DNA of 25,228 nt, from positions 1 to 25,228 of the IMG/VR virus record IMGVR_UViG_3300010041_000001; one strand, given 5' to 3'. A program made the translations under genes and the position numbers. This DNA comes from a virus. The notes beneath the pieces are model-generated. The model was not told the origin of the DNA, made no database searches, and saw only the letters and a program-made list of their open reading frames with translations. Positions 1-24,844 of this stretch are shown in pieces. The number at the start of each line of letters is the position of its first letter. The first letter of the stretch is position 1.

Positions 1-119
1 AATCCTATAAACATGACTAACCCTTTACTTCTGTCCCATATTCTCCATAGGGCATAACGATACGATCTGTCGTCACTAAATGCAGCTCCATTATTCTCTT
101 CTTCGCCAAATAGTTTCAT
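1..119 (-). CDS. DUF1643 family protein (N-terminal part, cut by window edge)
   Basis: The minus strand from the ATG at 119 reads MKLFGEEENNGAAFSDD, then a stretch with YRYALWRIWD and LVMFIG, and runs off the left edge after 39 codons. The order FS-x-YRY-x-LWRIWD-x-MFIG is the characteristic opening of DUF1643 proteins, which normally continue with LNPSTA. That family is common in phages and plasmids and has no settled function. The ATG overlaps the TGA stop of the upstream DnaA-like gene by four bases (ATGA), so the two are probably translationally coupled. The rest of the protein is not visible. Confidence 0.82.
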   Translation of the reverse strand, partial: MKLFGEEENNGAAFSDDRSYRYALWRIWDRSKGLVMFIG

Positions 120-502
120 AATGGTATATCCTTTACTTTATTATATATCTCAATAAACTTCTCATCTTTATGCTTTAAAAAGCTTTGTCCACTCGTTATC
201 AAATACTTGGCACCGTGGCCATTAATATTTGCTACAGCGTGACCTATCTCGTTGAACGTTGACTTCTCAATTTCATTTTTAATCCTATACATTATAGCTC
301 TCCTTAAATCTGATAATGATAAGTCGTTATAATGCCTTAACCCTCTTCCTAGTGAATCTTTTTCAAGTAAATACCCTTTAGGAATATTAAAAGATTCATA
401 AACTTTATCTAGAAATTGGCCTATTACTTTAAGTCTTTCTTCTCTTGCTTTATTCTTCCTTTCAGCTATTTCAGCAAGTTGTCTAGCGGATATTGATTGC
501 AT
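116..502 (-). CDS. Small protein with DnaA domain IV-like helix-turn-helix
   Basis: 128 aa. Residues about 1-45 are charged and helical. Residues about 58-125 resemble the DNA-binding domain IV of DnaA: LRRAIMYRIKNEI, then STFNEIGHAVANINGHGAKY (the IG..f...GH core that in DnaA reads IG-x-F-GGRDHST), then a helix ending KDEKFIEIYNKV. In DnaA this domain reads DnaA boxes, so the protein may bind origin-like sites or act as a regulator. The ATPase domain of DnaA is absent. It has its own promoter just upstream (543-573) and overlaps the DUF1643 gene by ATGA. The domain call rests on pattern reading only; a generic HTH regulator is the alternative. Confidence 0.5.
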   Translation of the reverse strand: MQSISARQLAEIAERKNKAREERLKVIGQFLDKVYESFNIPKGYLLEKDSLGRGLRHYNDLSLSDLRRAIMYRIKNEIEKSTFNEIGHAVANINGHGAKYLITSGQSFLKHKDEKFIEIYNKVKDIPL

Positions 503-2493: not shown

Positions 2494-2754
2494 TTATTTT
2501 TGTTTCTTGAAACTACCAGTTTTATTGCAAAAGTGTACTACGTAATGTGGTATACTACCAGATATAGATGACATAAACGAATTATGTATACTACACGCTT
2601 TAGCAAAGTCAGTCGAATGAACTAATATATCTATAGTGCCTTTCTTAGGAAAGATTAAATAGTTTATTTTATTATCACTTAAGCACTCTCTTAGCTTTTT
2701 GCTAATAGTTTTAGACTCTTTGTCTTTAAAATCAATTGTTACTAGTGTTACCAT
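2494..2754 (-). CDS. Small unknown protein
   Basis: 86 aa from the ATG at 2754, which lies 8 bases after the upstream stop (TAA at 2764-2762). A start 7 codons earlier (2775) would overlap the upstream gene by 14 bases. The protein begins MVTLVTIDFKDKESKTISK and has a strand/helix pattern with the KINYLIFPKKGTIDILVHS segment in the middle, suggesting a small ferredoxin-like fold. No family is recognised. Confidence 0.6.
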   Translation of the reverse strand: MVTLVTIDFKDKESKTISKKLRECLSDNKINYLIFPKKGTIDILVHSTDFAKACSIHNSFMSSISGSIPHYVVHFCNKTGSFKKQK

Positions 2755-2761
2755 CTTTATA

Positions 2762-2989
2762 TTAAATAGTGGCATTGCCTTTAAGTTTTGATTGAAGCGA
2801 TTTTATTTCCTTTAACATTTTCTTTTGTGTAACTGATATGCTAAATAAAAGTATAGTATAAGCTGATATGTATTTTTCGTCTTTTTCTGAGCAACGTTTT
2901 AAGTTGCATATATAGAATACAGATTGCCAATACTTAGTTCTCCATACCCTAAGCTTTAATGTCGTTACAACTCTTTCAATATCTGTCAT
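2762..2989 (-). CDS. Small unknown basic protein
   Basis: 75 aa, unrecognised. It is lysine-rich and largely helical, with an aromatic patch (RVWRTKYWQSVFYIC) and a C-terminal amphipathic helix (KKMLKEIKSLQSKLK). The ATG overlaps the TGA of the upstream gene by four bases. Confidence 0.62.
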   Translation of the reverse strand: MTDIERVVTTLKLRVWRTKYWQSVFYICNLKRCSEKDEKYISAYTILLFSISVTQKKMLKEIKSLQSKLKGNATI

Positions 2990-3216
2990 AAGTATAATAT
3001 GTCTTCAACAACTCTGCCTCCAAAACTAACTGTCTCACCGTGTTCAGAACTTTTCTTTACACACTTGTAAAAACACCAATTGTCTTTACAAATTGCAAGC
3101 ATCACGTCTTTTGGTATGTTAGATATTTCTTGTGTTCTAACATTTGCATAGTTGACAATTATATCATAATCTTCTGTAGAAAATGACAGATCTTTTTGTT
3201 GAACTATTATTATCAT
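2986..3216 (-). CDS. Small unknown protein
   Basis: 76 aa, unrecognised. It starts with a hydrophobic strand (MIIIVQQKDLSF), continues with a helix (STEDYDIIVNYANV), and has a Cys-rich centre (CKDNWCFYKCVKK). It is coupled by ATGA to the gene at 2762 and sits 11 bases after the gene at 3228. Confidence 0.62.
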   Translation of the reverse strand: MIIIVQQKDLSFSTEDYDIIVNYANVRTQEISNIPKDVMLAICKDNWCFYKCVKKSSEHGETVSFGGRVVEDILYL

Positions 3217-3227
3217 TTTATAATCTT

Positions 3228-3434
3228 TTATTTTTGGTTAAACTTTTTAGCAGCTACTTTTGCACTACGGCCTTTATAGATCTTTTTCCAAACTTCACGA
3301 TATACTGTTATAGTGCCTCCTTTTGCCAATATTATCTTTGTTTTTGTGCTTCTGCCATTTGGCTGATTATCTAAAATTCCAAATAGAGTACCACCAATAG
3401 ATCGCTCTCTTTTAATTTCATCTTCAGTTATCAT
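3228..3434 (-). CDS. Small basic unknown protein
   Basis: 68 aa, unrecognised. It is strongly basic towards the C-terminus (WKKIYKGRSAKVAAKKFNQK), a composition that suits nucleic-acid binding, and the N-terminus is acidic (ITEDEIKRE). The start overlaps the stop of the gene at 3431 by ATGA. Confidence 0.62.
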   Translation of the reverse strand: MITEDEIKRERSIGGTLFGILDNQPNGRSTKTKIILAKGGTITVYREVWKKIYKGRSAKVAAKKFNQK

Positions 3435-7046: not shown

Positions 7047-7229
7047 TTTATTTTGCAATTTTTCACATATTGTTTTTAATAATTTGTTAATCATTTTTGA
7101 TGCAAACGTATTATATAATACATTTAACATATCATTAAATATATATATAAACATTGATGCAAATGCAACAAATATTACAAATAACATTAATCCGTTTGTT
7201 ATATAATCAAAAAATGTAAAATGTGACAT
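7035..7229 (-). CDS. Small membrane protein
   Basis: 64 aa. MSHFTFFDYITNG is followed by a long hydrophobic stretch (LMLFVIFVAFASMFIYIF) and a basic amphipathic C-terminal helix (SKMINKLLKTICEKLQNKF). One transmembrane helix is likely. It begins 23 nt after a TATATTTG box. Function unknown. Confidence 0.66.
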   Translation of the reverse strand: MSHFTFFDYITNGLMLFVIFVAFASMFIYIFNDMLNVLYNTFASKMINKLLKTICEKLQNKFAQ

Positions 7230-7252
7230 ATTGTATTTTTATTTTGTTATTA

Positions 7253-7279
7253 CAAATATACATCAGGAATGCCTACAAA
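7253..7279 (-). promoter_or_regulatory. Promoter of the 64-aa membrane protein gene
   Basis: A perfect -7 box TATATTTG (7260-7253) is present. The only nearby TTTG (7279-7276) is 15 bp away rather than 19-20, so the -33 element is weak or different here. Confidence 0.6.
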
Positions 7280-7306
7280 AAATCATTTATAGATGTCATT
7301 AACATA

Positions 7307-7395
7307 ATTTTAACAAATAATTTATTGATTACATTTTAACAATTCATTAACATTATTTTAACAAATATTATTTGTATATTTGAATTTGTTAAAAT
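7307..7395 (+). promoter_or_regulatory. Four 12-bp ATTTTAACAAAT sites around a plus-strand -7 box
   Basis: ATTTTAACAAAT occurs at 7307-7318 and 7355-7366, a variant ATTTTAACAATT at 7333-7344, and an inverted perfect copy at 7384-7395. A plus-strand TATATTTG (7375-7382) lies between copies 3 and 4. No TTTG is found at the expected -33 position; the TTTAACA of copy 3 is the nearest element. The arrangement looks like operator sites or origin-type iterons controlling rightward transcription. The whole 7230-7471 interval has no convincing gene. Confidence 0.5.
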
Positions 7396-7467
7396 TATAT
7401 AAACATATTAGGTAAATTAAAAATACAGATTAATTATGATATGACCACCGGGTAGACATATTAAACT

Positions 7468-7501
7468 AAAAAAACATGAATATTTGTCTATATTCATGTT
7501 T
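7468..7501 (-). terminator. Intrinsic terminator for leftward transcription
   Basis: A perfect 11-bp stem (7472-7482 with 7491-7501, arm AAACATGAATA) has an 8-base loop. It is followed on the minus strand by seven T (7474-7468). It would end the transcript of the gene at 7666-7953, giving that mRNA a 3' tail of about 190 nt. Confidence 0.82.
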
Positions 7502-7537
7502 AATTATATCAGTTATTTCCTGTATAAATATATTACT

Positions 7538-7559
7538 GCATGTGACTATAAACACATGC
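7538..7559. other. Perfect 7-bp hairpin in the 3' tail region
   Basis: GCATGTG (7538-7544) and CACATGC (7553-7559) pair around an 8-base loop. It lies between the 13-bp repeat array and the terminator, so it is a further structured part of the long 3' tail of the gene at 7666-7953. Confidence 0.55.
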
Positions 7560-7578
7560 CTATGACAATACACCCCAG

Positions 7579-7665
7579 CCCAGTGGGACTACCCAGTGGG
7601 ACTACCCAGTGGGACTACCCAGTGGGACTACCCAGTGGGACTACCCAGTGGGACTACCCAGTGGG
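7579..7665. repeat. Tandem array of a 13-bp repeat, core CCCAGTGGG
   Basis: Seven copies of CCCAGTGGG start at 7579, 7592, 7605, 7618, 7631, 7644 and 7657, exactly 13 bp apart and separated by ACTA. The core is an odd palindrome (CCCA-G-TGGG). In RNA, neighbouring units can also pair TGGG with CCCA around a 4-base loop. On the minus strand the array begins at the base right after the TAA stop of the gene at 7666. It is GC-rich in an AT-rich setting. The plus-strand open frames across it (PSGTTQWDYPVG units) are by-products of the repeat: 13 is not a multiple of 3. A second, degenerate array with the same period lies at 9988-10108. Confidence 0.92.
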
Positions 7666-9810: not shown

Positions 9811-9987
9811 TACATATTATAACAATGCAACTACAACAACTCATATCACCAAATATTTCTGAAAATTTATCAGATATTTATTTTCCTGATATAACTAATC
9901 ATATTAGAAAAAAATGTCATATTATAGGATCCGATGATATGACACAGGTTGGCAAAACTCTGCTTGGGACAAAGCTGCCAGCCCCCA

Positions 9988-10108
9988 CCCAGTGGGACCA
10001 TCCAGTGGGTACACCCAGTGGGACAGAGGCTGATGACGCTAGACAGGTACCATCGTCATTCAAGCCTCTACCTGTTGGTGGGGCCACCCAGTGGGTCTAA
10101 CCAGTGGG
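9988..10108. repeat. Second, degenerate array of the 13-bp CCCAGTGGG repeat
   Basis: Units start at 9988, 10001 (TCCAGTGGG), 10014, then 10087 and 10100 (ACCAGTGGG). The 13-bp period is kept in both parts although the 4-base spacers vary (ACCA, TACA, TCTA). The orientation equals that of the first array. The 64-bp gap between the two parts is the inverted-repeat stem described for the candidate RNA. Confidence 0.88.
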
Positions 10109-10129
10109 TACACAAGATACGAACGATTT

Positions 10130-10247: not shown

Positions 10248-11432
10248 TCAATTGTCGGATGGATTCCGGGAAAATGAATGTGAGTACTCTCCGTATCTTG
10301 CAGCGTCCATCAAGTGGTTAAATTGATCTATTGGAACATTTGTAGGTTTGCCTGTATTAGTGTCTATCATCCATTTATATCTAATTCTTTCAGCATGAAT
10401 ATTAACAGATGATGCTGTATAGAACACTTTCTTCTTTTGTAAATCAAGTATACCTGACTTAAGACTACCTGCACCTTTCCTTGCTGGAAGAACAAGAAGA
10501 TCTAACCTTCTTAATTGGCTTATTTGATCAACATCATGTTCAGCGTATATAGGTTTATCTTCATTAAATCCATGGGCTTCAAATATTTCTTTCTGTTCTT
10601 TCGGAGAAAGGCCTGGTATATAAAACAGCTCGTGAAGAAATACAGATTCAAACTTATGAGCTATTCTTACTCCAGCTGTTGGGTCATTAGTATAACCAAA
10701 GTCCAAACCTCCAAAGAAGTTTTCTTCACTCCAAGGGAAATCCTCATCAGGAATTCTTACCATGTGGGGGTATATCAAACCAGTAATATTACCTGTTTTA
10801 CCCCTAGCGTAAACTGCAAATAGTTGTGGGTCTTTTATGCCTTCAATCTTTGCATGTTCAAGTTCTGAAAGGAAAGTATTATGTCTGTGATCAGATATTA
10901 TCAACTCAACAGTAGCTGTAAGATCGTTAGTAGATGGATTAGTTCCTATCAAATTTTCATGTGCCCAGAAAGGAGCAGTTGGGTTGTAATCAAGGAATAC
11001 TTGCACATGAGTTCTTATTGCAAGTTGCCAGAATATTAACCAAGATATGCCTTGCGCTTCATTTACAAATAAGTAATCTCTTTTACCAGACTTTGCAGAC
11101 TGTTCATCTAAGTTTGAAACAAACTCCATTATAGATTTGTTCTTGAATACTATTGTCTTAGTGGATTTGTTCCAAGATTCTATATACTGTTGCAAAGCTT
11201 GGCTATTTGTAAAGATTGTTTCTGCATCACGGTAAGCTCCTTTACGAAGGTTTGGAATAGATTCACCTGTAACTGTTACAACAGTCCCTGGTCTCTCTAT
11301 GCATTTATAGTATAATACTTGTATTATACTATATGTCTTTGACGAAGATGTTCCACCTTGATTAATAACAACACCAGCTTTACTATGATAGTTTTTAGTA
11401 AAGACTGGTGTATACTTAAATAGTACAGACAT
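10248..11432 (-). CDS. terL: Terminase large subunit
   Basis: 394 aa, PBSX/SPP1-type terminase. ATPase domain: Walker A-like QGGTSSSKTYS (about 25-35), Walker B YLFVNEAQGIS (about 120-130), and a coupling motif near FLDYNPTAPFW (147-156). Nuclease domain (RNase H-like): GGLDFGYTNDPTAG (241-254, Asp244), IYAEHD (295-300), MDAARYG (375-381, Asp376). The protein packages DNA into the procapsid by ATP hydrolysis and makes the headful or cos cut. The length is near the lower end of the family but all motifs are there. It lies two bases after the small subunit. No portal gene follows downstream; that space holds the repeat/early region. Confidence 0.93.
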   Translation of the reverse strand: MSVLFKYTPVFTKNYHSKAGVVINQGGTSSSKTYSIIQVLYYKCIERPGTVVTVTGESIPNLRKGAYRDAETIFTNSQALQQYIESWNKSTKTIVFKNKSIMEFVSNLDEQSAKSGKRDYLFVNEAQGISWLIFWQLAIRTHVQVFLDYNPTAPFWAHENLIGTNPSTNDLTATVELIISDHRHNTFLSELEHAKIEGIKDPQLFAVYARGKTGNITGLIYPHMVRIPDEDFPWSEENFFGGLDFGYTNDPTAGVRIAHKFESVFLHELFYIPGLSPKEQKEIFEAHGFNEDKPIYAEHDVDQISQLRRLDLLVLPARKGAGSLKSGILDLQKKKVFYTASSVNIHAERIRYKWMIDTNTGKPTNVPIDQFNHLMDAARYGEYSHSFSRNPSDN

Positions 11433-11434
11433 AA

Positions 11435-11926
11435 TTAACCTATTTGAGATTCGTCACTTGAAAGTGGAGGTATACCATCTTCACCCTCTTTACCATTTGC
11501 TTCAAGTTGAGGAACCTCAGGTAACCCTGTATGGTTAACATTCTTATTATCTGCCCAACCGAGATTCTTCAAAGCAAATATTGAACCATTAGGATACTTT
11601 CCTGAAAGGTTTTTTTCATATTTCCCTTCAACCCTTAATTTGGCCATTTCGATTATTTCCTTGAAGTCTTCTCTATGTTGATAGTTTAATAATGCTTGTC
11701 TTGTAGAGAAACCAAGGTATAAAGCTAATCCTGTAACAGTTGGAGGTTCAGGTTCCCTGTCATAAACAAGTATAGTATTGTCTCCTCTTTCTTCTTCATG
11801 CCATTCACCTTTGATGTAAACGAAGTACTCATCTATCTTATTTTGAAGTTCTTCAGGTGTTTTGTAATCGTTTATCCTTATTGGCCTGAAGTCTGTAAAC
11901 AGTTCACCTTTTATTTGCTTTTCCAT
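11435..11926 (-). CDS. terS: Terminase small subunit
   Basis: 163 aa from the ATG at 11926 (MEKQIKGELFTDF). An ATG six codons earlier (11944) lies inside the -7 box and is disfavoured. The sequence fits the phage DNA-packaging small-subunit type: a helical start (ELQNKIDEYFVYIKGEW), PPTVTGLALYLGFSTRQALL (HTH for DNA recognition), DFKEIIEMAKLRVEGKYEKN, and SIFALKNLGWADN, the usual closing motif. It recognises the packaging site and loads TerL. It has its own promoter. Confidence 0.88.
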   Translation of the reverse strand: MEKQIKGELFTDFRPIRINDYKTPEELQNKIDEYFVYIKGEWHEEERGDNTILVYDREPEPPTVTGLALYLGFSTRQALLNYQHREDFKEIIEMAKLRVEGKYEKNLSGKYPNGSIFALKNLGWADNKNVNHTGLPEVPQLEANGKEGEDGIPPLSSDESQIG

Positions 11927-11941
11927 ATAGGAAGTTTGATA

Positions 11942-11974
11942 CAAAATTACAAAATAATTGCTATATGAACCAAA
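11942..11974 (-). promoter_or_regulatory. Promoter of the terminase genes
   Basis: TTTG (11974-11971), 21 bp, TAATTTTG (11949-11942) on the minus strand, a match to TAnnTTTG with slightly long spacing. The start codon of terS is 15 bases downstream. Confidence 0.6.
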
Positions 11975-12135: not shown

Positions 12136-12555
12136 CTACAAAATCAATAGTTTAAACTCATCCAAACTGTGAAACAAGTAATACCCAAATCCTAACATCT
12201 TAACCATAGACTCAAACTTAATCTGTTCTTTATCTTGTTTACAACCAGGTAACTTACATTCAAGAAACTTAACACTAGGACTAATCTTCCATTCATCTTT
12301 AAAAAGATAAATCAAATCTGAAACTCCTGGCACCATTCCCATACCTTTTAATACTGCTCCTTCTATCCTGTTATTAGGATTATTATATACCATAAACAAT
12401 CTTCCTCTCTCACTAGGAAAACTATTCCAATGCCAAGTAAAACATATTGACTGTAATCTTGCTTCATACATATTAACCTGCTTATTATTCAAAGCTTTAA
12501 CAACTCCTTCATTAATACCAGACTTTAAATTATCTTCAGAAATAATCAAACTCAT
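12136..12555 (-). CDS. VRR-NUC domain nuclease
   Basis: 139 aa. After an N-terminal helix, NMYEARLQSICFTW contains the early Glu (about 31). It continues with KGMGMVPGVSDLIYLF (Asp80 in the G-x-SD motif), VKFLECKLPG (Glu99-x-Lys101), and KEQIKFESMVKMLGFGYYLF (Gln111), ending HSLDEF. This G-SD...ExK...Q order is the PD-(D/E)xK nuclease signature of the VRR-NUC family, which acts on branched DNA and is frequent in phages as a single domain. It may process replication or packaging intermediates. It lies between the origin-like stretch and the terminase genes. Confidence 0.82.
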   Translation of the reverse strand: MSLIISEDNLKSGINEGVVKALNNKQVNMYEARLQSICFTWHWNSFPSERGRLFMVYNNPNNRIEGAVLKGMGMVPGVSDLIYLFKDEWKISPSVKFLECKLPGCKQDKEQIKFESMVKMLGFGYYLFHSLDEFKLLIL

Positions 12556-12640
12556 ATTACTAAATTTAACTTGTTAAAAATAAAGTTATAAAATCACATA
12601 ACATATTGAATATCAACCAATTAACCATTTTAACACATTC

Positions 12641-12921
12641 TTATCCACCACTTATCCATCCCTTATCGACCATAAACCATTGGTTACCAATCACTTAACT
12701 CACTTTACCGTTATAAATGGTATAAGATAAGTATAATACAATATAACCAATAAAAAAAAGACTGGAAAACGACGTCGAAAAATATATGGACGTATGTATG
12801 GTATATAAAGAGTGGACGACGAAAAACGTGGTATCGGGGTTAAGTGGCGATATGTCGTTGATTTCCAACCACTTGCAAACCGATATATTTTGGTAAGGGG
12901 TGTAAAGTGGCGGATAAGTGG
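12641..12921. other. Candidate replication origin (DnaA-box-like sites in a gene-free stretch)
   Basis: The stretch 12556-12954 has no convincing gene. It holds TTATCCACC (12641-12649, one base from the DnaA box TTATCCACA), TTATCCATC (12652-12660), TTATCGACC (12663-12671) and, inverted, TTATCCGCC (12917-12909). CCACTTATCC at 12648-12657 is repeated inverted at 12921-12912, and AAGTGGCG occurs twice (12842, 12905). ATTGGT-T-ACCAAT (12679-12691) is a perfect palindrome. An AT-rich part (12556-12620) lies beside the box cluster. This fits an origin; a complex regulatory site is the alternative. Confidence 0.45.
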
Positions 12922-12954
12922 TATAAATCAATCGTTTATGCATTAAAATAAATA

Positions 12955-14367: not shown

Positions 14368-14457
14368 AATTTGACTATTTTTTAGTTAAAGACTATATAG
14401 ATTTGAAATAAAAACGGTTAAGTGAGTTAAGTTATTGATTGTCAATAAGATATATGG

Positions 14458-15219
14458 TTAAGTGTTGTCAGCATGAGTTTGAATATCTGTTGTTGGGTCA
14501 CCAGAGAAATAACCTCTTGTATTTGGTGTATTACTTATAATCTCCTCAAATCCATATCCTAAAGCACTTGATATTATAGGAAGTTGCTGCATGAATATAT
14601 TTTTTATCTCCTTTGAAGGCAGCTGAGCTTCTTTCTGCGCGTGCGCATCTAATCTTCCTTGAAGGAAGTGTATCCAACTCCTTACAGAACCAGTCATAAA
14701 AAGAGTTGTTTGCGTAGTCATTGGCAGAATAAACCTAGCACATTCTTTTGCCACACCTTTATTAAGCAATTCTTCGTATAAAGCCTTTCCTTGAGCAAGA
14801 TAAGTCGTTATCGCTTCAGAAGCAAGTTGACCAGATTCAAGCCTAAATCCACTTTCGTCTTCATGCGGAAGAAATATATCTAAAACTGGATCAAAAACTT
14901 CTTCACTGCTTTGTCTGTTCTTAACAGCCTGTCTTCTCAACTCAATAGGTTCAAAATTATCAACCTTTGCATATCTTTGAGAGAACTCTTGGAAAGTAAA
15001 AGACCTATGGCGAAGGAACTGGATTGCAACAACTTTGCTTGTCTCAATTTCAATAGTCATAAAGCTGTGTTCAAAAGGAGACCAATGCTTATTGTTAATT
15101 AGATACCTTACTAATCCTTCAGGATTTTCTGACTTATCTTCTCTGTTTGAACTAACACGAGCGATCTCAACAATGTTTATCTCTGCATTAGGCGTAACTG
15201 ACTTTAGTGATACTTTCAT
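14458..15219 (-). CDS. thyX: FAD-dependent thymidylate synthase ThyX
   Basis: 253 aa. The ThyX signature RHRSFTFQEFSQR (residues 70-82; RHR-x7-S with the extra QR) is intact. So are the other conserved segments: HWSPFEH (45-51), ARFILPM (161-167) and SVRSWIHFLQGRLDAHAQKE (178-197), which holds the dUMP and FAD contacts. The enzyme makes dTMP from dUMP with methylene-tetrahydrofolate, FAD and NADPH. It boosts the thymidine pool for AT-rich phage DNA. The C-terminal tail (TRGYFSGDPTTDIQTHADNT) is an extension without clear role. Length and motifs are normal, so the gene should be active. Confidence 0.96.
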   Translation of the reverse strand: MKVSLKSVTPNAEINIVEIARVSSNREDKSENPEGLVRYLINNKHWSPFEHSFMTIEIETSKVVAIQFLRHRSFTFQEFSQRYAKVDNFEPIELRRQAVKNRQSSEEVFDPVLDIFLPHEDESGFRLESGQLASEAITTYLAQGKALYEELLNKGVAKECARFILPMTTQTTLFMTGSVRSWIHFLQGRLDAHAQKEAQLPSKEIKNIFMQQLPIISSALGYGFEEIISNTPNTRGYFSGDPTTDIQTHADNT

Positions 15220-17964: not shown

Positions 17965-20571
17965 TTAAAATCCGTCTTGTTCAACTTCTTCTGAGTCATG
18001 GTAATCAAACTTTTTACATTTGCAATTCTCCCACTTTCCTCCAGCTGCATCTATTACCCAATGGCCAACTTGACAAGTATTTTCATACTTTATATTCTTT
18101 AGGAAACAGTATTCTGAAAGTGCATCTGAAATATGTTTTGTCTTTGGTATTGGTTTTCTGCCTAATTCGGTGAAGTATTTCTTTATACTTTCTTCAAACA
18201 CTTTATTAGGAACACATCCAACTTTATAGCTTCCAGACTTATTCTTTAAATCTTTATAAGTTTTCCAAGTTTCAATATGTTCATCTATAAATTCAAGAAT
18301 ATCGGAGCCGAAAGTTATTTCAAACTGTCTTACTTTACCTTCTTCTGAAAGTTCATTATTTTTAAGTACATATCCAGACTTAAACCATTGCTGAATACAT
18401 AATACTATAAATTGATCGTATCCTATCCAGTCTCCTTGATTCCAACAATCAGGAAATATACCTTTAAAATAACCATTGACACCGCCGACCTTTTTAAAGA
18501 AATCAGTAAATTCAAGGTTTATAACTCTTCTCTTAACACCACCATCATCTATACGGACAGCGTAATTTGTCACAACTACAAACTTAGGAGTTTCATTATA
18601 TCCAAGTACCATCCTATCCTTATACATCCTGTGAACTGTAATATCACCATCAGCTGCTTGCTTTAAAGTTTTCCAATCAAACCTTTTATTAGGATCCGAT
18701 ATTACGAATAACTTCTGATTTCTCCATCCTTGGAAGGTATCTTCATCTACATCACTACATTGAGAGCCAGGATATAAATAATAAGAAATACTATGGCTAA
18801 GCATCTCGAATAAAACGTTTTTACCAGTACCTCCACCTTGCCTGACATCTTCACACATTTCTGTACCAGCAATTATGTAACTCATTGACCTGTCCTTATA
18901 ATCGTGAACTAAATAACCTATTATACCCATCACATAGTCAAGCTTTTTATCCAACTCAACAGATAGTTGCAAAAACTTTAAATACTTACAATCTTCATCA
19001 TAAGGTATTAAGTCGTATGATCTGTTTTGTATTCTATCTTTGTGTATTAACTTTTTTAGGTTATTAAGTTTAGAATAAGGCATCAATATAACTGAATCTT
19101 TTGTTATCTTTAATATACCGTTTTTGAAATACTTGTAACAGATATATTTGCTGTCATGTAAGAACTCTTCGTCTTGTATTTTAACAAGTCTTTTACTAAC
19201 AACGTGAGACCAATATCTTGCAACGAATTCTTCAAACTTTCGGCATATTTCAGAATACAAATCGCCATCTTCTTCCTTTATATACGCTTTCAACTCGTTA
19301 TAGAAATCAGGTTCATTGTAATCCACAACAATACCACCAACGATACGACATAACACACTCATAGTGCTGTAAACTCTAAACCCTAATCCAGTCGCAATTT
19401 CTAATAATCCATTAAAGTCTATTTCAACAGAACCCCTATCACCGATATTCCAGAATATACCATAAGGATATAATTCATCTTGCTTCTGTTTTAACTCGTC
19501 AAGTAACTTTTTACCTTCATCAGATATATTTCCTGGAGTATTACTGCCATTTATTATAGACCTTTCAATTATCTGCTTTTCTACATTAGGTTTAAGTTTA
19601 CCGTAACCTTTTTCAACTAAATACCTAAAAGCTGACTTTTTATCACCATTAAACTGAAAGTGAGCTAATAAAGTAGCAGGGTTATAACCTCTTGGCGCAT
19701 CTAAGTTTGTTGAAGTAGTGAATACAAAGAAGACTCTTTTTTGATAATTAAATGATGCTGATATTCCAGTTCCTTTATCTGGACGAGTGAACCATGCAAA
19801 CCTGTTATTTGAATTAGGAAACTTAGACCAACCATTTGAAACCATAAGCTCTACAGGATCGCAAGTGCGATTATAATGTTCAAAAGGTGATTCGTCATAA
19901 GAATTAAATTCTACAGTGTTTATCTTTGGTGGTTCTTTTACTTCAATTATTTCATCATAAGATTTGAAAAAGTTTATAAAAGAGCACCTCTCTTCATAAG
20001 TAAACATAGGCACAGGCAAGTTCTTTACTACCTTGTAATTTAATGAAGGAGGTGCAACTATATAACCACCTTCGCCCCTTGTTTCTATAAAGCATTTTTT
20101 CTTTTGTTTAGGATTTGCTAAAAGTTCAGATTCAGTCGCATACCTGCTTGCAAGTTTCATATTACCAGAGACCTCTCCATCAACTCTATAAAGTAAATGG
20201 TATCCTCCTGAAGGAGTTTTATGAACTCTAAGTCTTGCAGCAATATCTGGATATGTTAACTTTAAGTCTTGAAATATTAATCCATCTATGCCTGGATAAT
20301 ATTTAGTATCCAAATCTATTACTTCTAAATGTCCACTGATGTTACCACATATAATAGCTACAGCTGTAGTTTTATATTGAGTATCCATCTCAAACCATAA
20401 CCTGTCTTTAGTTACGACCTTACTTTGAAACTCTTTCCAACCAGTATAAGGTGATTTGGCAGGAAATCTTTCTGGATTATTTTCATCAGGTCTATCACGC
20501 ACAGGTATTATGCTAAATCCTTCTGAAAGCAAAGTCTCAACTTCCCTCCAGACAGGTTCCATACCTTCCAT
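17965..20571 (-). CDS. Prim-pol primase fused to SF3 (D5-type) helicase
   Basis: 868 aa. The N-terminal bifunctional primase-polymerase domain (1-200) has GFSIIPV (18-24), the catalytic EVIDLD (83-88, Asp86/Asp88), TPSGGYHLLYRV (119-130, His125) and FIETRGEGGYIVAPPSL (161-177). The middle links through helical D5_N-like sequence (about 500-565). The C-terminal SF3 helicase has Walker A RQGGGTGKN (577-585), Walker B KLFVISDPN (620-628), motif C TPKFVVVTNY (661-670) and a following GGVKRRV (677-683) with likely arginine finger. A Cys/Lys-rich tail (WENCKCKKFDYHD) closes the protein. It should prime and unwind phage DNA. The upstream ATG three codons further in is an alternative start. Function is clear; the fold order is standard for phage/plasmid replication proteins. 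Confidence 0.92.
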   Translation of the reverse strand: MEGMEPVWREVETLLSEGFSIIPVRDRPDENNPERFPAKSPYTGWKEFQSKVVTKDRLWFEMDTQYKTTAVAIICGNISGHLEVIDLDTKYYPGIDGLIFQDLKLTYPDIAARLRVHKTPSGGYHLLYRVDGEVSGNMKLASRYATESELLANPKQKKKCFIETRGEGGYIVAPPSLNYKVVKNLPVPMFTYEERCSFINFFKSYDEIIEVKEPPKINTVEFNSYDESPFEHYNRTCDPVELMVSNGWSKFPNSNNRFAWFTRPDKGTGISASFNYQKRVFFVFTTSTNLDAPRGYNPATLLAHFQFNGDKKSAFRYLVEKGYGKLKPNVEKQIIERSIINGSNTPGNISDEGKKLLDELKQKQDELYPYGIFWNIGDRGSVEIDFNGLLEIATGLGFRVYSTMSVLCRIVGGIVVDYNEPDFYNELKAYIKEEDGDLYSEICRKFEEFVARYWSHVVSKRLVKIQDEEFLHDSKYICYKYFKNGILKITKDSVILMPYSKLNNLKKLIHKDRIQNRSYDLIPYDEDCKYLKFLQLSVELDKKLDYVMGIIGYLVHDYKDRSMSYIIAGTEMCEDVRQGGGTGKNVLFEMLSHSISYYLYPGSQCSDVDEDTFQGWRNQKLFVISDPNKRFDWKTLKQAADGDITVHRMYKDRMVLGYNETPKFVVVTNYAVRIDDGGVKRRVINLEFTDFFKKVGGVNGYFKGIFPDCWNQGDWIGYDQFIVLCIQQWFKSGYVLKNNELSEEGKVRQFEITFGSDILEFIDEHIETWKTYKDLKNKSGSYKVGCVPNKVFEESIKKYFTELGRKPIPKTKHISDALSEYCFLKNIKYENTCQVGHWVIDAAGGKWENCKCKKFDYHDSEEVEQDGF

Positions 20572-20590
20572 ACGACAAAGATTAAATGAG

Positions 20591-20674
20591 TCATCTTTTA
20601 TTCTTACGTTTTGAAAATATAAGAACTAAAAGGCAACTCCAATAAATTAGTAATATAATATCTAGAATTAACAT
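20591..20674 (-). CDS. 27-aa membrane peptide
   Basis: ATG at 20674 follows the preceding TAA directly (TAAATG), TGA at 20593-20591. MLILDIILLIYWSCLLVLIF is one hydrophobic helix, ending SKRKNKR. It lies between the degenerate frame at 20675 and the primase start. The tight stop-start junction suggests coupling. Function unknown. Confidence 0.48.
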   Translation of the reverse strand: MLILDIILLIYWSCLLVLIFSKRKNKR

Positions 20675-20961
20675 TTATAAGTCTATGTCAAGTATTTTTA
20701 CGTTAGTAAATTCATAATCTGGACTTAATATAATAACTTTGTAATTAGTTGTTATATTATTTATAGTTTGTTTAATGTTATCTAGAACATTTGGTTTGTT
20801 TTCTATATCATATAAAGTGATAGAAAACTGTTCAGGATTATGGTCTCCTAGTTGTTCAGATTAAATAAACAAACTAACCAACTTATTATAATTGACATAT
20901 TCTAAACTTGTTAATCTTTTCTTGTCAATTCTAATAGCCTTTGCAATTAATTGTTTGTGCT
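20675..20961 (-). pseudogene. Coding-like sequence broken by a missing start and an in-frame TAA
   Basis: One frame reads RRIKHKQLIAKAIRIDKKRL, then TSLEYVNYNKLVSLFI, a TAA (20863-20861), then SEQLGDHNPEQFSITLYDIE and on to VKILDIDL and a TAA at 20677-20675. Both halves look like real protein and would join smoothly if the TAA were CAA (Gln). No start codon opens the frame. It is the -1 frame of the preceding 80-aa gene, whose end contains a run of seven A followed by an AGGAGG. A broken gene, or a frameshifted and read-through extension of the 80-aa gene, are the two readings. Confidence 0.5.
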
Positions 20962-21204
20962 TTATCCTCCTACCGTTTTTTTGCATTCTTCTAATATTTT
21001 TATTGAATCTTCTTCAGCTTGTTTTTGAGTGTCATAAACAAAGTCAGTTCCCCATATTCTTCTTTGGAAAGTTTGTTCACGGCGCTCATAAAAAGATATA
21101 TCAAACTTATTGTTTACGTTTTTGTATATTTCAATAAGTAATAATCCGCCAGTTTGTGCTGAAATTATTTGCTCTGATTCTAACTTTGGTACTTTCATTT
21201 TCAT
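20962..21204 (-). CDS. Small unknown protein
   Basis: 80 aa. MKMKVPKLESEQIISAQTGG is followed by a beta strand pair (LLLIEIYKNVNNKFDISFYE), WGTDFVYDTQKQAEEDSIKI and LEECKKTVGG. The ATG overlaps the TGA of the helicase gene by four bases. Near the 3' end an A7 run could allow slippage into the frame described at 20675-20961. No family recognised. Confidence 0.65.
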   Translation of the reverse strand: MKMKVPKLESEQIISAQTGGLLLIEIYKNVNNKFDISFYERREQTFQRRIWGTDFVYDTQKQAEEDSIKILEECKKTVGG

Positions 21205-22670
21205 TTTAGTTTAAAGTCGTTAAATTCTATCGGTTCAGACGTTATAAGCTGAATTTGATGGTCTATCCAACCGTTTTTATAGCCCATTGATTTAGCGAAA
21301 TCTCTAAGCCATCCTTCCCTTTTCTGCTCTTGAGAACGGGCTATTCTCATTGCAAATTGACCTTTATTTTTCAATCTTGCGTATAATGCAAGTTCTTCTG
21401 CATTTAACTCACTAAGCTTCTTTCCTATTAAGGATTGATACTTTTCTGTTAATTCAACTAGTAATCCATCCTTCTTTTGTTTTTCAGTTAGTGGCAATTC
21501 AAAGGAGCAATATGGACAAACTCTTGCAGACGCTGCTATTATTGCCATGCAACTAGGGCAGTTCTTTACTGGAGGAGCTCCAAGAGGTTTATCTCCTTTC
21601 TTTGGAGCTTTCCATAACTTGTTCCAATCCCTATCCCAGTCCCATAAACCATGCTTTTGCCAGTTGCTACCATAATCTAAAGCTGTAAAAGATTGCTTCA
21701 TATCTGAAGGTCTTGAACCTCTTCCAAGCATTTGAAGAAATAGAGCTAAAGACGTGGTGGCCCTGTTCAAAACTATCAAGTCTACAACGGGATAGTCATA
21801 ACCTTTTGTTAATTGCCCAACTGATACACAAATATTTATACCAGAGTTTTCTGTATCAAACTCTTTCATTAAAGCAGAGTCAATAGAATGAGTTTTAGAT
21901 ACTTTAAATCCAGCTTCACACAAGTCTTTATGCAAAAGATCACAATGGTCAATGCTAGAACAAAATATTAGACATTTTTTATAAGGAATCTTATTCAAAT
22001 CTTCATATAAGCCATTAAAAACATCCTGATTATAAAAAGCTAACATTTGTGATTTCTCAGTATATTCTCCATTTTGTATCTTTAAGAAGTCGTGCCTAAT
22101 CCCAACCCTTGCATAGTGTCTGTATGGAACTAAAGCTTGTTCTTGTATTAGTTCTTGTACTTGAGGACCTGTTACCAAAGTTTGGTATATTAAAGGGAGA
22201 TGTTTTGATGTTCTCCAAACAGGTGTAGCAGTAAATCCTATTAATTTAGCAGACGGAATTTCAAATAATATTTTTGAATGAGTCCCCATGTGGGCTTCAT
22301 CTGTTATAACCAAAAGTTCGTTTTTGAAATTATTAAACTGCCTTAATATCATAGGCCTTTTATTCAATGTTTGAGCCATCGCTACATACGCCATTCCTTT
22401 TTCTATTTTAATAGCATCGCTGCATCCAGCATTTAGCTCTATGCCTCCAACTTCATTTTGAATCTGAGAAAATATCTTTTTGGACTCTGTTAATATTAAA
22501 ACAGGTCGCTCCTTTTCAAGAGCGGCCTGTGTAATAGATATAAATACTTTTGTTTTGCCTCCACCAGTAGGTAACTGGGCAAGAACAGATTTGTTTGTTC
22601 TAAAAGCCTGCCTTATGTTTTCTTTAAATTCATTCTGGTATTTGCGGAGAGTAAAGTTCATAAACAACAT
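21201..22670 (-). CDS. DEAH-box SF2 helicase with zinc finger
   Basis: 489 aa. Motifs in order: Q-like RKYQ (9-12), Walker A LPTGGGKT (33-40), DEAH (124-127), FTATP (146-150), a RecA2 domain with CVSVGQLTKGYDYP (281-294) and motif VI QMLGRGSRP (313-321). Then a four-Cys zinc site CPSC...CPYC (371-374 and 385-388), and a C-terminal basic helical part. This is the RadD/UvrB-like type seen in many phages as a replication or recombination helicase. The ATG three codons later (MNFTLRKYQ) is an equally good start. It stands between SSB and the primase in the replication module. Confidence 0.9.
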   Translation of the reverse strand: MLFMNFTLRKYQNEFKENIRQAFRTNKSVLAQLPTGGGKTKVFISITQAALEKERPVLILTESKKIFSQIQNEVGGIELNAGCSDAIKIEKGMAYVAMAQTLNKRPMILRQFNNFKNELLVITDEAHMGTHSKILFEIPSAKLIGFTATPVWRTSKHLPLIYQTLVTGPQVQELIQEQALVPYRHYARVGIRHDFLKIQNGEYTEKSQMLAFYNQDVFNGLYEDLNKIPYKKCLIFCSSIDHCDLLHKDLCEAGFKVSKTHSIDSALMKEFDTENSGINICVSVGQLTKGYDYPVVDLIVLNRATTSLALFLQMLGRGSRPSDMKQSFTALDYGSNWQKHGLWDWDRDWNKLWKAPKKGDKPLGAPPVKNCPSCMAIIAASARVCPYCSFELPLTEKQKKDGLLVELTEKYQSLIGKKLSELNAEELALYARLKNKGQFAMRIARSQEQKREGWLRDFAKSMGYKNGWIDHQIQLITSEPIEFNDFKLK

Positions 22671-23749: not shown

Positions 23750-24844
23750 TTACACTACTAATGTCGAAAATATACCTAAAAACTTTTCGTCTTCTGTTGT
23801 CCATAAGGTTAAAAACCCTTTTGACAAAGCGCCAACACAAGGAGAAAATCTCATCTTGCTATATGGTAAAGGCTTCATATAATCCATAGTAATCCTATGA
23901 TTGAATTTTATAGGGTCTGTAAGCTCAAAATGCCCTGAAGAGTAGAAATTCGTATCACCACCTACATGGAAATCATTATCTGAAAGATTCAACGTCATTC
24001 TACCATCAGAACAACCAGGCAACCCTTGAACCTTTGTTCGTTTTAGTATACATTCTGGTATCTTAGACGTAGCACTTTTGCTTGTAAGTTCGCAAAACTT
24101 TATTAAGTCAAACTTTTCAAACTCAAACCATTGGTCTTTACTAACAAACTCAAACCTTGAATTAAATGCAGGCGTCTCAACTTCAGGTTTCACAAATCCG
24201 TAAGTTAAGAAATTGTTACCAAAGAAGTTGTAATTTTGATACTTGAAATAATCCATATCGCCTAAATTATTTATCATGGCCACTTGTTCTGGTGATAGTA
24301 TTACTTCAGGAAGTGATTTGTCCCCTATATTATAGGAAAACATATTGAAAGCATCTGTGCTAAATATAAAACCATCCTTTATATGTATAAAGAATAGAGG
24401 ATGGTTATTGTCTAATTCAGATGTATTTTGAGCTGCAACATTCATCAAAGTTATCACTTCCCTTGAAAATTTACCTGGACTTTCTTGTGTATCAAAGTCT
24501 GGATACTTTGGATACAAGTTTATATCCAACACAGGGTATGACATTTTTAACATTCCATCAGATATCTGAATAAGATTTTCTTCAATATACTCAAAAGAAA
24601 GAATATCTTTAGTAGTGTAATCTAAAAATCCATTTAGTATCTTATCGTCAATAAGTATTTCTACTCCCGTGTCAACAAATAACTTGTATTGGCAATATGA
24701 TTTATAATTAGTTTTTATAAGCCTGTTGTTTTCTAACTTTGAAAATGCAAGTATTGGATAGGTATTGTCTCCTTTTATATTTCTGCTGTTTTGTTGGAAA
24801 GATCTTAAGTCTGATACTTTTAGTTGTACTTTGTATTGCTGCAT
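23750..24844 (-). CDS. Probable sliding clamp (DnaN-like)
   Basis: 364 aa, nearly the length of bacterial beta clamps (~366 aa). The layout fits three clamp repeats: LRSFQQNSRNIKGDNTYPIL in the first, FSREVITLMNVAAQNTSELD with FIHIKDGFIFSTDAFNMFSY in the second (the typical helix then L-x-x-x-G-x-x-ATD-x-x-R-like segment), and NHRITMDYMKPLPYSKMRFS with GFLTLWTTEDEKFLGIFSTL at the end (the closing strand of domain 3). Identity by eye is low, so the call is tentative. A clamp without a polymerase in the window suggests a host or distantly encoded polymerase partner. It is followed by the unknowns at 23.7-23.1 kb and ssb. Confidence 0.6.
   Translation of the reverse strand: MQQYKVQLKVSDLRSFQQNSRNIKGDNTYPILAFSKLENNRLIKTNYKSYCQYKLFVDTGVEILIDDKILNGFLDYTTKDILSFEYIEENLIQISDGMLKMSYPVLDINLYPKYPDFDTQESPGKFSREVITLMNVAAQNTSELDNNHPLFFIHIKDGFIFSTDAFNMFSYNIGDKSLPEVILSPEQVAMINNLGDMDYFKYQNYNFFGNNFLTYGFVKPEVETPAFNSRFEFVSKDQWFEFEKFDLIKFCELTSKSATSKIPECILKRTKVQGLPGCSDGRMTLNLSDNDFHVGGDTNFYSSGHFELTDPIKFNHRITMDYMKPLPYSKMRFSPCVGALSKGFLTLWTTEDEKFLGIFSTLVV

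Follow-up and report, generated by a model that had tools for sequence, protein, structure and literature searches.

In the alpha/ori/crr system of satellite phage P4, a primase-helicase recognizes short iterons, and a second iteron site lies kilobases away. Origins of phage-inducible chromosomal islands (PICIs) lie immediately 3' of the initiator gene and have one iteron set on each side of an AT-rich region; one such origin was shown to replicate a plasmid (PMC6092414). The 2018 paper describing them called this layout unique to phage-inducible islands (PMC6092414). A region of Streptococcus thermophilus phage Sfi21 is origin-like and, through its copy number, confers resistance to phage (PMC6356513). 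In pRN1, a protein that joins a Prim-Pol to a superfamily 3 (SF3) helicase uses a stem-loop origin located 3' of its own gene, and this origin is functional when moved elsewhere (PMC4234260). Here we analyzed a window of 25,228 bp, the whole of IMG/VR record IMGVR_UViG_3300010041_000001, a 25-kb linear fragment from a phage of Bacteroidota-type bacteria. We focused on the 399-bp gap between called genes at 12556-12954. A first-pass annotation had labeled this region origin-like, with sites for DnaA. The label is probably right: of the possible readings of the gap, a phage replication origin has the strongest support, and we propose that it is probably of the SF3-helicase iteron type found in PICIs. 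The assignment of the sites to DnaA is not supported; they fit an iteron specific to this phage, arranged as two opposed sets.

All of the repeats originally described in the gap are present. Four TTATC[CG]-type nonamers lie at 12641 (TTATCCACC, +), 12652 (TTATCCATC, +), 12663 (TTATCGACC, +) and 12909-12917 (TTATCCGCC, -). The inverted CCACTTATCC pair (12648-12657, +, and 12912-12921, -) and the repeated AAGTGGCG (12842 and 12905) each have only these two copies in the window. The odd-centered 13-base palindrome ATTGGTTACCAAT occupies 12679-12691, and the flank at 12556-12638 is 82% A+T. The TTATCC "boxes" are a degenerate 9-bp iteron, GNTAAGTGG, in reverse complement, and this single motif accommodates the other repeats of the gap as well. 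The left set (12617-12708) comprises five units, all on the minus strand: GTTAATTGG at 12617, GATAAGTGG at 12648, GATAAGGGA at 12659, GTTAAGTGA at 12691 and GTAAAGTGA at 12700. The right set (12839-12921) comprises four units, all on the plus strand: GTTAAGTGG at 12839, GGTAAGGGG at 12892, GTAAAGTGG at 12902 and a second GATAAGTGG at 12913. Between the two opposed sets is a spacer that is 79% A+T (12713-12765), a candidate melting region. Tandem Repeats Finder reported an 11-bp tandem triple, CTTATCCACCA/CTTATCCATCC/CTTATCGACCA (12640-12672, +), which corresponds to the DnaA-like boxes of the first-pass annotation and is the reverse complement of iteron units beginning GATAAG.

To judge the clustering, we compared the gap with the rest of the window and with shuffled sequence. 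Two 6-mers, AAGTGG and CTTATC, each occur five times in the gap (0.22 and 0.30 expected, respectively). With up to one mismatch, GNTAAGTGG has 17 copies in the window, where about 15 are expected by chance, and 7 of the 17 fall inside the gap (binomial P = 4e-9, an optimistic value because the consensus was drawn from the gap). The window contains three exact matches, all inside the gap. Four TTATC[CG] sites were reached in 16 of 2000 dinucleotide shuffles of the gap. Less circular tests back the clustering more modestly: the mismatch-tolerant repeat count of 11 was equalled by 1 of 200 shuffles and by 1 of 121 other windows, and the inverted sharing between the gap halves was reached by 2 of 500 shuffles. 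A search of IMG/VR for exact TTATCCRCCACTTATCC returned 9 contigs, most of them not comparable.

The repeat cluster is real but is not confined to 12641-12921, as had been thought. It extends outside these limits, and the 34-nt element at 12679-12712, of which the palindrome is part, has a related inverted copy at 14413-14446. Together with GTTAAGTGA at 14417, GTTAAGTTA at 14426 and GTTAAGTGT at 14457, this region forms a secondary cluster (14413-14465, +) upstream of a 323-aa gene. The gap could in principle be a regulatory region, either a partition site or a set of operators bound by a repressor or activator of the phage: many kinds of DNA-binding protein could use short repeats in two orientations, and extra copies precede the 323-aa gene. 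However, the TAnnTTTG promoter core was not found between 12400 and 13100, and in other phages repeats of this kind accompany SF3 helicase genes, in one case within an annotated origin. We consider a regulatory role distinctly unlikely.

The gap does not look coding. Its sole open reading frame (82 aa; 12695-12943, -) had a codon score of -0.27, compared to +0.1 to +0.24 for small genes. A search of Rfam gave no match, and the gap region folded only mildly better than shuffled sequences (z = -2.0). At a 500-bp scale, GC skew did not change sign near 12.7 kb. The skew change anticipated by the first-pass annotation is thus absent at large scale, a test that says little here as all likely genes point in one direction. 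The gap had also been described as the only one of ~400 bp in the right half, which is incorrect: a second, of 390 bp (20572-20961), lies directly upstream of the gene for a Prim-Pol/SF3 helicase and has no copies of GNTAAGTGG with up to one mismatch.

If the gap were a host-DnaA-dependent origin, host DnaA would bind the 11-bp tandem TTATC boxes, open the flank at 12556-12638 and recruit the host replisome. The tandem triple does repeat every 11 bp, as adjacent DnaA boxes do, and none like it arose in 2000 dinucleotide shuffles of the gap. Moreover, true tandem DnaA-box arrays exist in other viral contigs (L012, L016, L022 and L023), with TAAGTGGCG also nearby in L023. The sites themselves argue otherwise. 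None is an exact match to TTATCCACA, one has a single mismatch and the rest have two, and all four end in C where the consensus has A. Sites with up to two mismatches are no denser in the gap than in several other 500-bp bins, and the gap lacks the several boxes close to TTATCCACA expected of a DnaA-dependent origin. The other repeats (GTTAAGTGA, GTAAAGTGG and AAGTGGCG) are not DnaA boxes and fit the iteron. In addition, contigs L012 and L016 encode a DnaB-type helicase, the usual partner in a DnaA-dependent origin, with no SF3 helicase detected, whereas the window encodes an SF3 helicase and had no DnaB match among the proteins scanned from this 25-kb fragment. A DnaA-dependent origin is therefore an unlikely reading. 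A hybrid of the two, in which iterons for an SF3 helicase drifted into DnaA-like boxes (the 11-bp tandem TTATCC units) and host DnaA, or a phage DnaA-like protein such as other Bacteroidota phages encode, competes for them to switch or limit replication, seems to us very unlikely. In the 49.8-kb record of L023 (IMGVR_UViG_3300014911_000010), which has no DnaB, VapE or DUF5906 match, tandem TTATCCACT/TTATCCACC boxes lie at 7100-7150 with TAAGTGGCG nearby, before a 151-aa gene.

A phage-encoded DnaA-like protein had been proposed from the gene at 116-502 (-), whose 128-aa product was thought to be a stand-alone DnaA DNA-binding domain (domain IV). The idea was reasonable given that other Bacteroidota phages, including mumin9-1 and phi46:1, encode stand-alone domain IV proteins. 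However, the protein had no match to PF08299 at E<=10. Against a hidden Markov model of phage domain IV proteins and Escherichia coli DnaA it scored 3.4 bits, a value equalled or exceeded by 37 of 500 shuffles. Neither a single-query search of IMG/VR nor searches of phages, plasmids and GTDB genomes found relatives of this orphan. The structure prediction that had been suggested as a check, a single-sequence AlphaFold model, had a confidence (pLDDT) of 66.9 and was weak exactly where the helix-turn-helix would be expected (34-42 over residues 81-110). Foldseek found no match to the model at E<=0.001. The best VIA Z for the model was 4.1, and a DnaA chain (8btg) reached Z 3.1 in a match that does not clearly cover the domain IV of that chain. 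The DnaA assignment of this protein is thus not supported.

The phage encodes a candidate initiator of its own. An 868-aa protein (17965-20571, -) contains a Prim-Pol domain (PF09250, 51 bits) and an SF3-type helicase domain (PF19263, DUF5906, 31.9 bits, over the cut-off of 27.6), so that the element that carries opposed, degenerate iterons around a 79% A+T spacer in noncoding DNA also carries a proposed SF3-type initiator. The gap repeats are probably docking sites for this helicase and not for host DnaA. In the mechanism we propose, the two opposed sets of GNTAAGTGG would serve as recognition sites to which the Prim-Pol/SF3 protein would bind, assembling on both sides of the AT-rich center. 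It would then melt the center and load as both helicase and primase, with no need for host DnaA or a DnaB loader. The replication module further includes a ResIII/DEAD-type helicase (21201-22670, -; PF04851, 7e-18; phrog_16, 2e-62), and the phage encodes a single-stranded DNA-binding protein. A 364-aa protein (23750-24844, -) without a Pfam, PHROG or NCBIfam match resembles, by eye, a sliding clamp.

Downstream of the gap are genes for a nuclease and both terminase subunits. The nuclease is a stand-alone VRR-NUC protein of 139 aa whose gene adjoins the gap (12136-12555, -; phrog_824, 5e-15). It had no direct Pfam match, and a single-query search of IMG/VR found no close relatives. In alignment with annotated or PF08774-positive VRR-NUC proteins, E31, D80, E99-x-K101 and Q111 were invariant, and the protein has the D ... 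E-x-K ... Q nuclease motif of known members. The small terminase subunit (11435-11944, -; phrog_606, 8e-25) and the large subunit, TerL (10248-11432, -; PF04466, 1.4e-6; phrog_2, 5e-23), follow. Diverged CCCAGTGGG copies are present downstream of the TerL gene, at 9985-10026 and 10074-10125.

The same layout recurs in other phages with different repeats. In two TerL relatives, L043 and L049, a VRR-NUC gene lies upstream of the terminase genes and is preceded by a gap that has many direct and inverted copies of a motif different from that of the window (GGTAGTAGG in L043, AGGTAACA in L049). In both, the end of an SF3 helicase gene precedes the gap; the L043 helicase has a VapE domain by Pfam, and that of L049 was assigned by position and with a profile built during this analysis. 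The order SF3 helicase, gap, VRR-NUC, small and large terminase subunits was also found in isolated phages, namely Flavobacterium phages snusmum6-1 (AGGTAACC), lotta8-1 (ATTGGAAC) and FPSV-S27 (GGTTACAC), Cellulophaga phage phi17:1 (AGTGACCA), Staphylococcus phage phiSa2wa_st30 (GATGCAAC) and Paenibacillus phage FutureBee (CTGCAACA), where the sequences in brackets are the gap repeats. A scan for VRR-NUC genes added 80 contigs, 42 of them with an SF3 helicase gene upstream; in many, iterons come directly after the SF3 gene and a ResIII helicase gene precedes the nuclease. In mumin9-1 (L114), a gene for a GIY-YIG-like nuclease (2665-3228) that is absent in snusmum6-1 separates the SF3 helicase gene from the iteron gap and looks like an insertion at the origin.

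We then surveyed 20 non-redundant SF3-helicase loci drawn from IMG/VR contigs and from Flavobacterium, Cellulophaga, Staphylococcus, Paenibacillus and Streptococcus phages. In 14 of the 20, the 300 bp that follow the helicase gene contained significant phage-specific iterons (P<=0.005), and at 13 loci the count in those 300 bp was equalled by no other window of the locus. Among the loci with iterons is that of Sfi21, where AGTAAC repeats flank an AT-rich center on both sides; its record (NC_000872) annotates this post-helicase gap as 'origin of replication, 302 bp non-coding region, phage inhibitory sequence'.

The position of the gap, just upstream of the genes for VRR-NUC and both terminase subunits, could also suit a packaging site (cos or pac) recognized by the small terminase subunit, and iterons that vary between the comparator phages are what TerS specificity could produce. 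Sfi21 argues against this view, as its equivalent gap is the annotated origin and its cos site is annotated elsewhere. Furthermore, in the contigs with the VRR-NUC proteins closest to that of the window, the iterons come directly after the SF3 gene and a 1.4-kb helicase gene intervenes before the nuclease. TerL relatives also lack such a box cluster: no DnaA-box cluster was found in 80 of their loci. A TerL alignment search of genome contigs found nothing. We judge a packaging site to be about as improbable as a regulatory region.

Several observations weigh against an SF3-helicase iteron origin. The helicase gene ends (17965) ~5 kb from the gap (12954), so the gap is not immediately 3' of the proposed initiator gene; the helicase falls in a different branch, that of Prim-Pol/DUF5906 rather than VapE; and the 868-aa protein has no recognized C-terminal DNA-binding domain. 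The gap iterons are more degenerate than those of the comparators, with no exact 8-mer occurring three times, and 12 of 403 other places in the window have inverted sharing of equal strength. The iteron test failed at six of the 20 loci: L117, L118, L142 and L148, together with L114 and L043, which failed because their iterons lie further downstream. The gaps of BT47P1, BK687P6 and phi3:1 are without iterons, and L079, L082 and L046 had no iteron cluster. In the Prim-Pol relatives phi17:2, phi38:1 and Shambre1, similarity is restricted to the N-terminal third, and no comparable gap is annotated after the gene. Taking these points into account, the gap is most likely a variant of the SF3-helicase iteron origin, a variant because the helicase gene is not adjacent and the iterons are degenerate.

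Another reading puts the origin outside the gap, for instance at a 13-bp tandem array (7579-7665) or at a pRN1-like stem-loop just 3' of the Prim-Pol/SF3 gene. The array, a perfect CCCAGTGGGACTA x6.7, lies in an AT-rich 436-bp gap (7230-7665) and adjoins 22-bp AT-rich repeats, and pRN1 offers a precedent for the stem-loop. However, the array sits in the accessory part of the window and has no counterpart in 218 loci, and folding of the stretch 3' of the SF3 gene is at chance level (z = -1.4; 8 of 100 shuffles). An origin elsewhere is the least probable of the readings considered here. Between 5.9 and 9.7 kb, leader repeats of 60-90 nt that contain TATATTTG, a Bacteroidota-type promoter core, recur among small AT-rich genes on the minus strand.

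The occurrence of the island-type layout in phages of both Bacteroidota and Firmicutes suggests a single replication module, common to islands and phages, in which the recognition repeat changes between elements. It also provides a simple origin finder for uncharacterized phages: phage-specific iterons after an SF3 helicase gene, or before VRR-NUC and terminase genes. The pairing of helicase and repeat is directly testable by swaps.

Comparison with described systems places the gap among these origins. The initiator of PICIs and of the Staphylococcus aureus pathogenicity islands (SaPIs) is SF3-type, the same class as the one proposed for the window, but here the gap, with its degenerate iterons, is in a terminase-encoding phage and ~5 kb away from the helicase gene. 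The Flavobacterium phages (mumin/snusmum, lotta8-1 and FPSV-S27) share a gap with opposed iterons that adjoins VRR-NUC upstream of the terminase genes; they differ in having exact iterons, present 5-8 times, and, except in mumin9-1, an adjacent helicase gene. Sfi21 shares a ~300-bp noncoding gap in the replication module, with repeats flanking an AT-rich center and Prim-Pol and DUF5906/D5 helicase genes nearby. Its origin lies directly after the helicase gene, its iteron is AGTAAC rather than GNTAAGTGG, and the gene after its origin has no Pfam match, VRR-NUC included. pRN1 ORF904, like the protein of the window phage, combines a Prim-Pol with an SF3 helicase, but its origin is a 100-nt stem-loop where the signal in the window consists of iterons. 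Finally, P4 differs from the window in iteron sequence and gene context, and the cluster at 14413-14465 might be the counterpart of its second iteron site.
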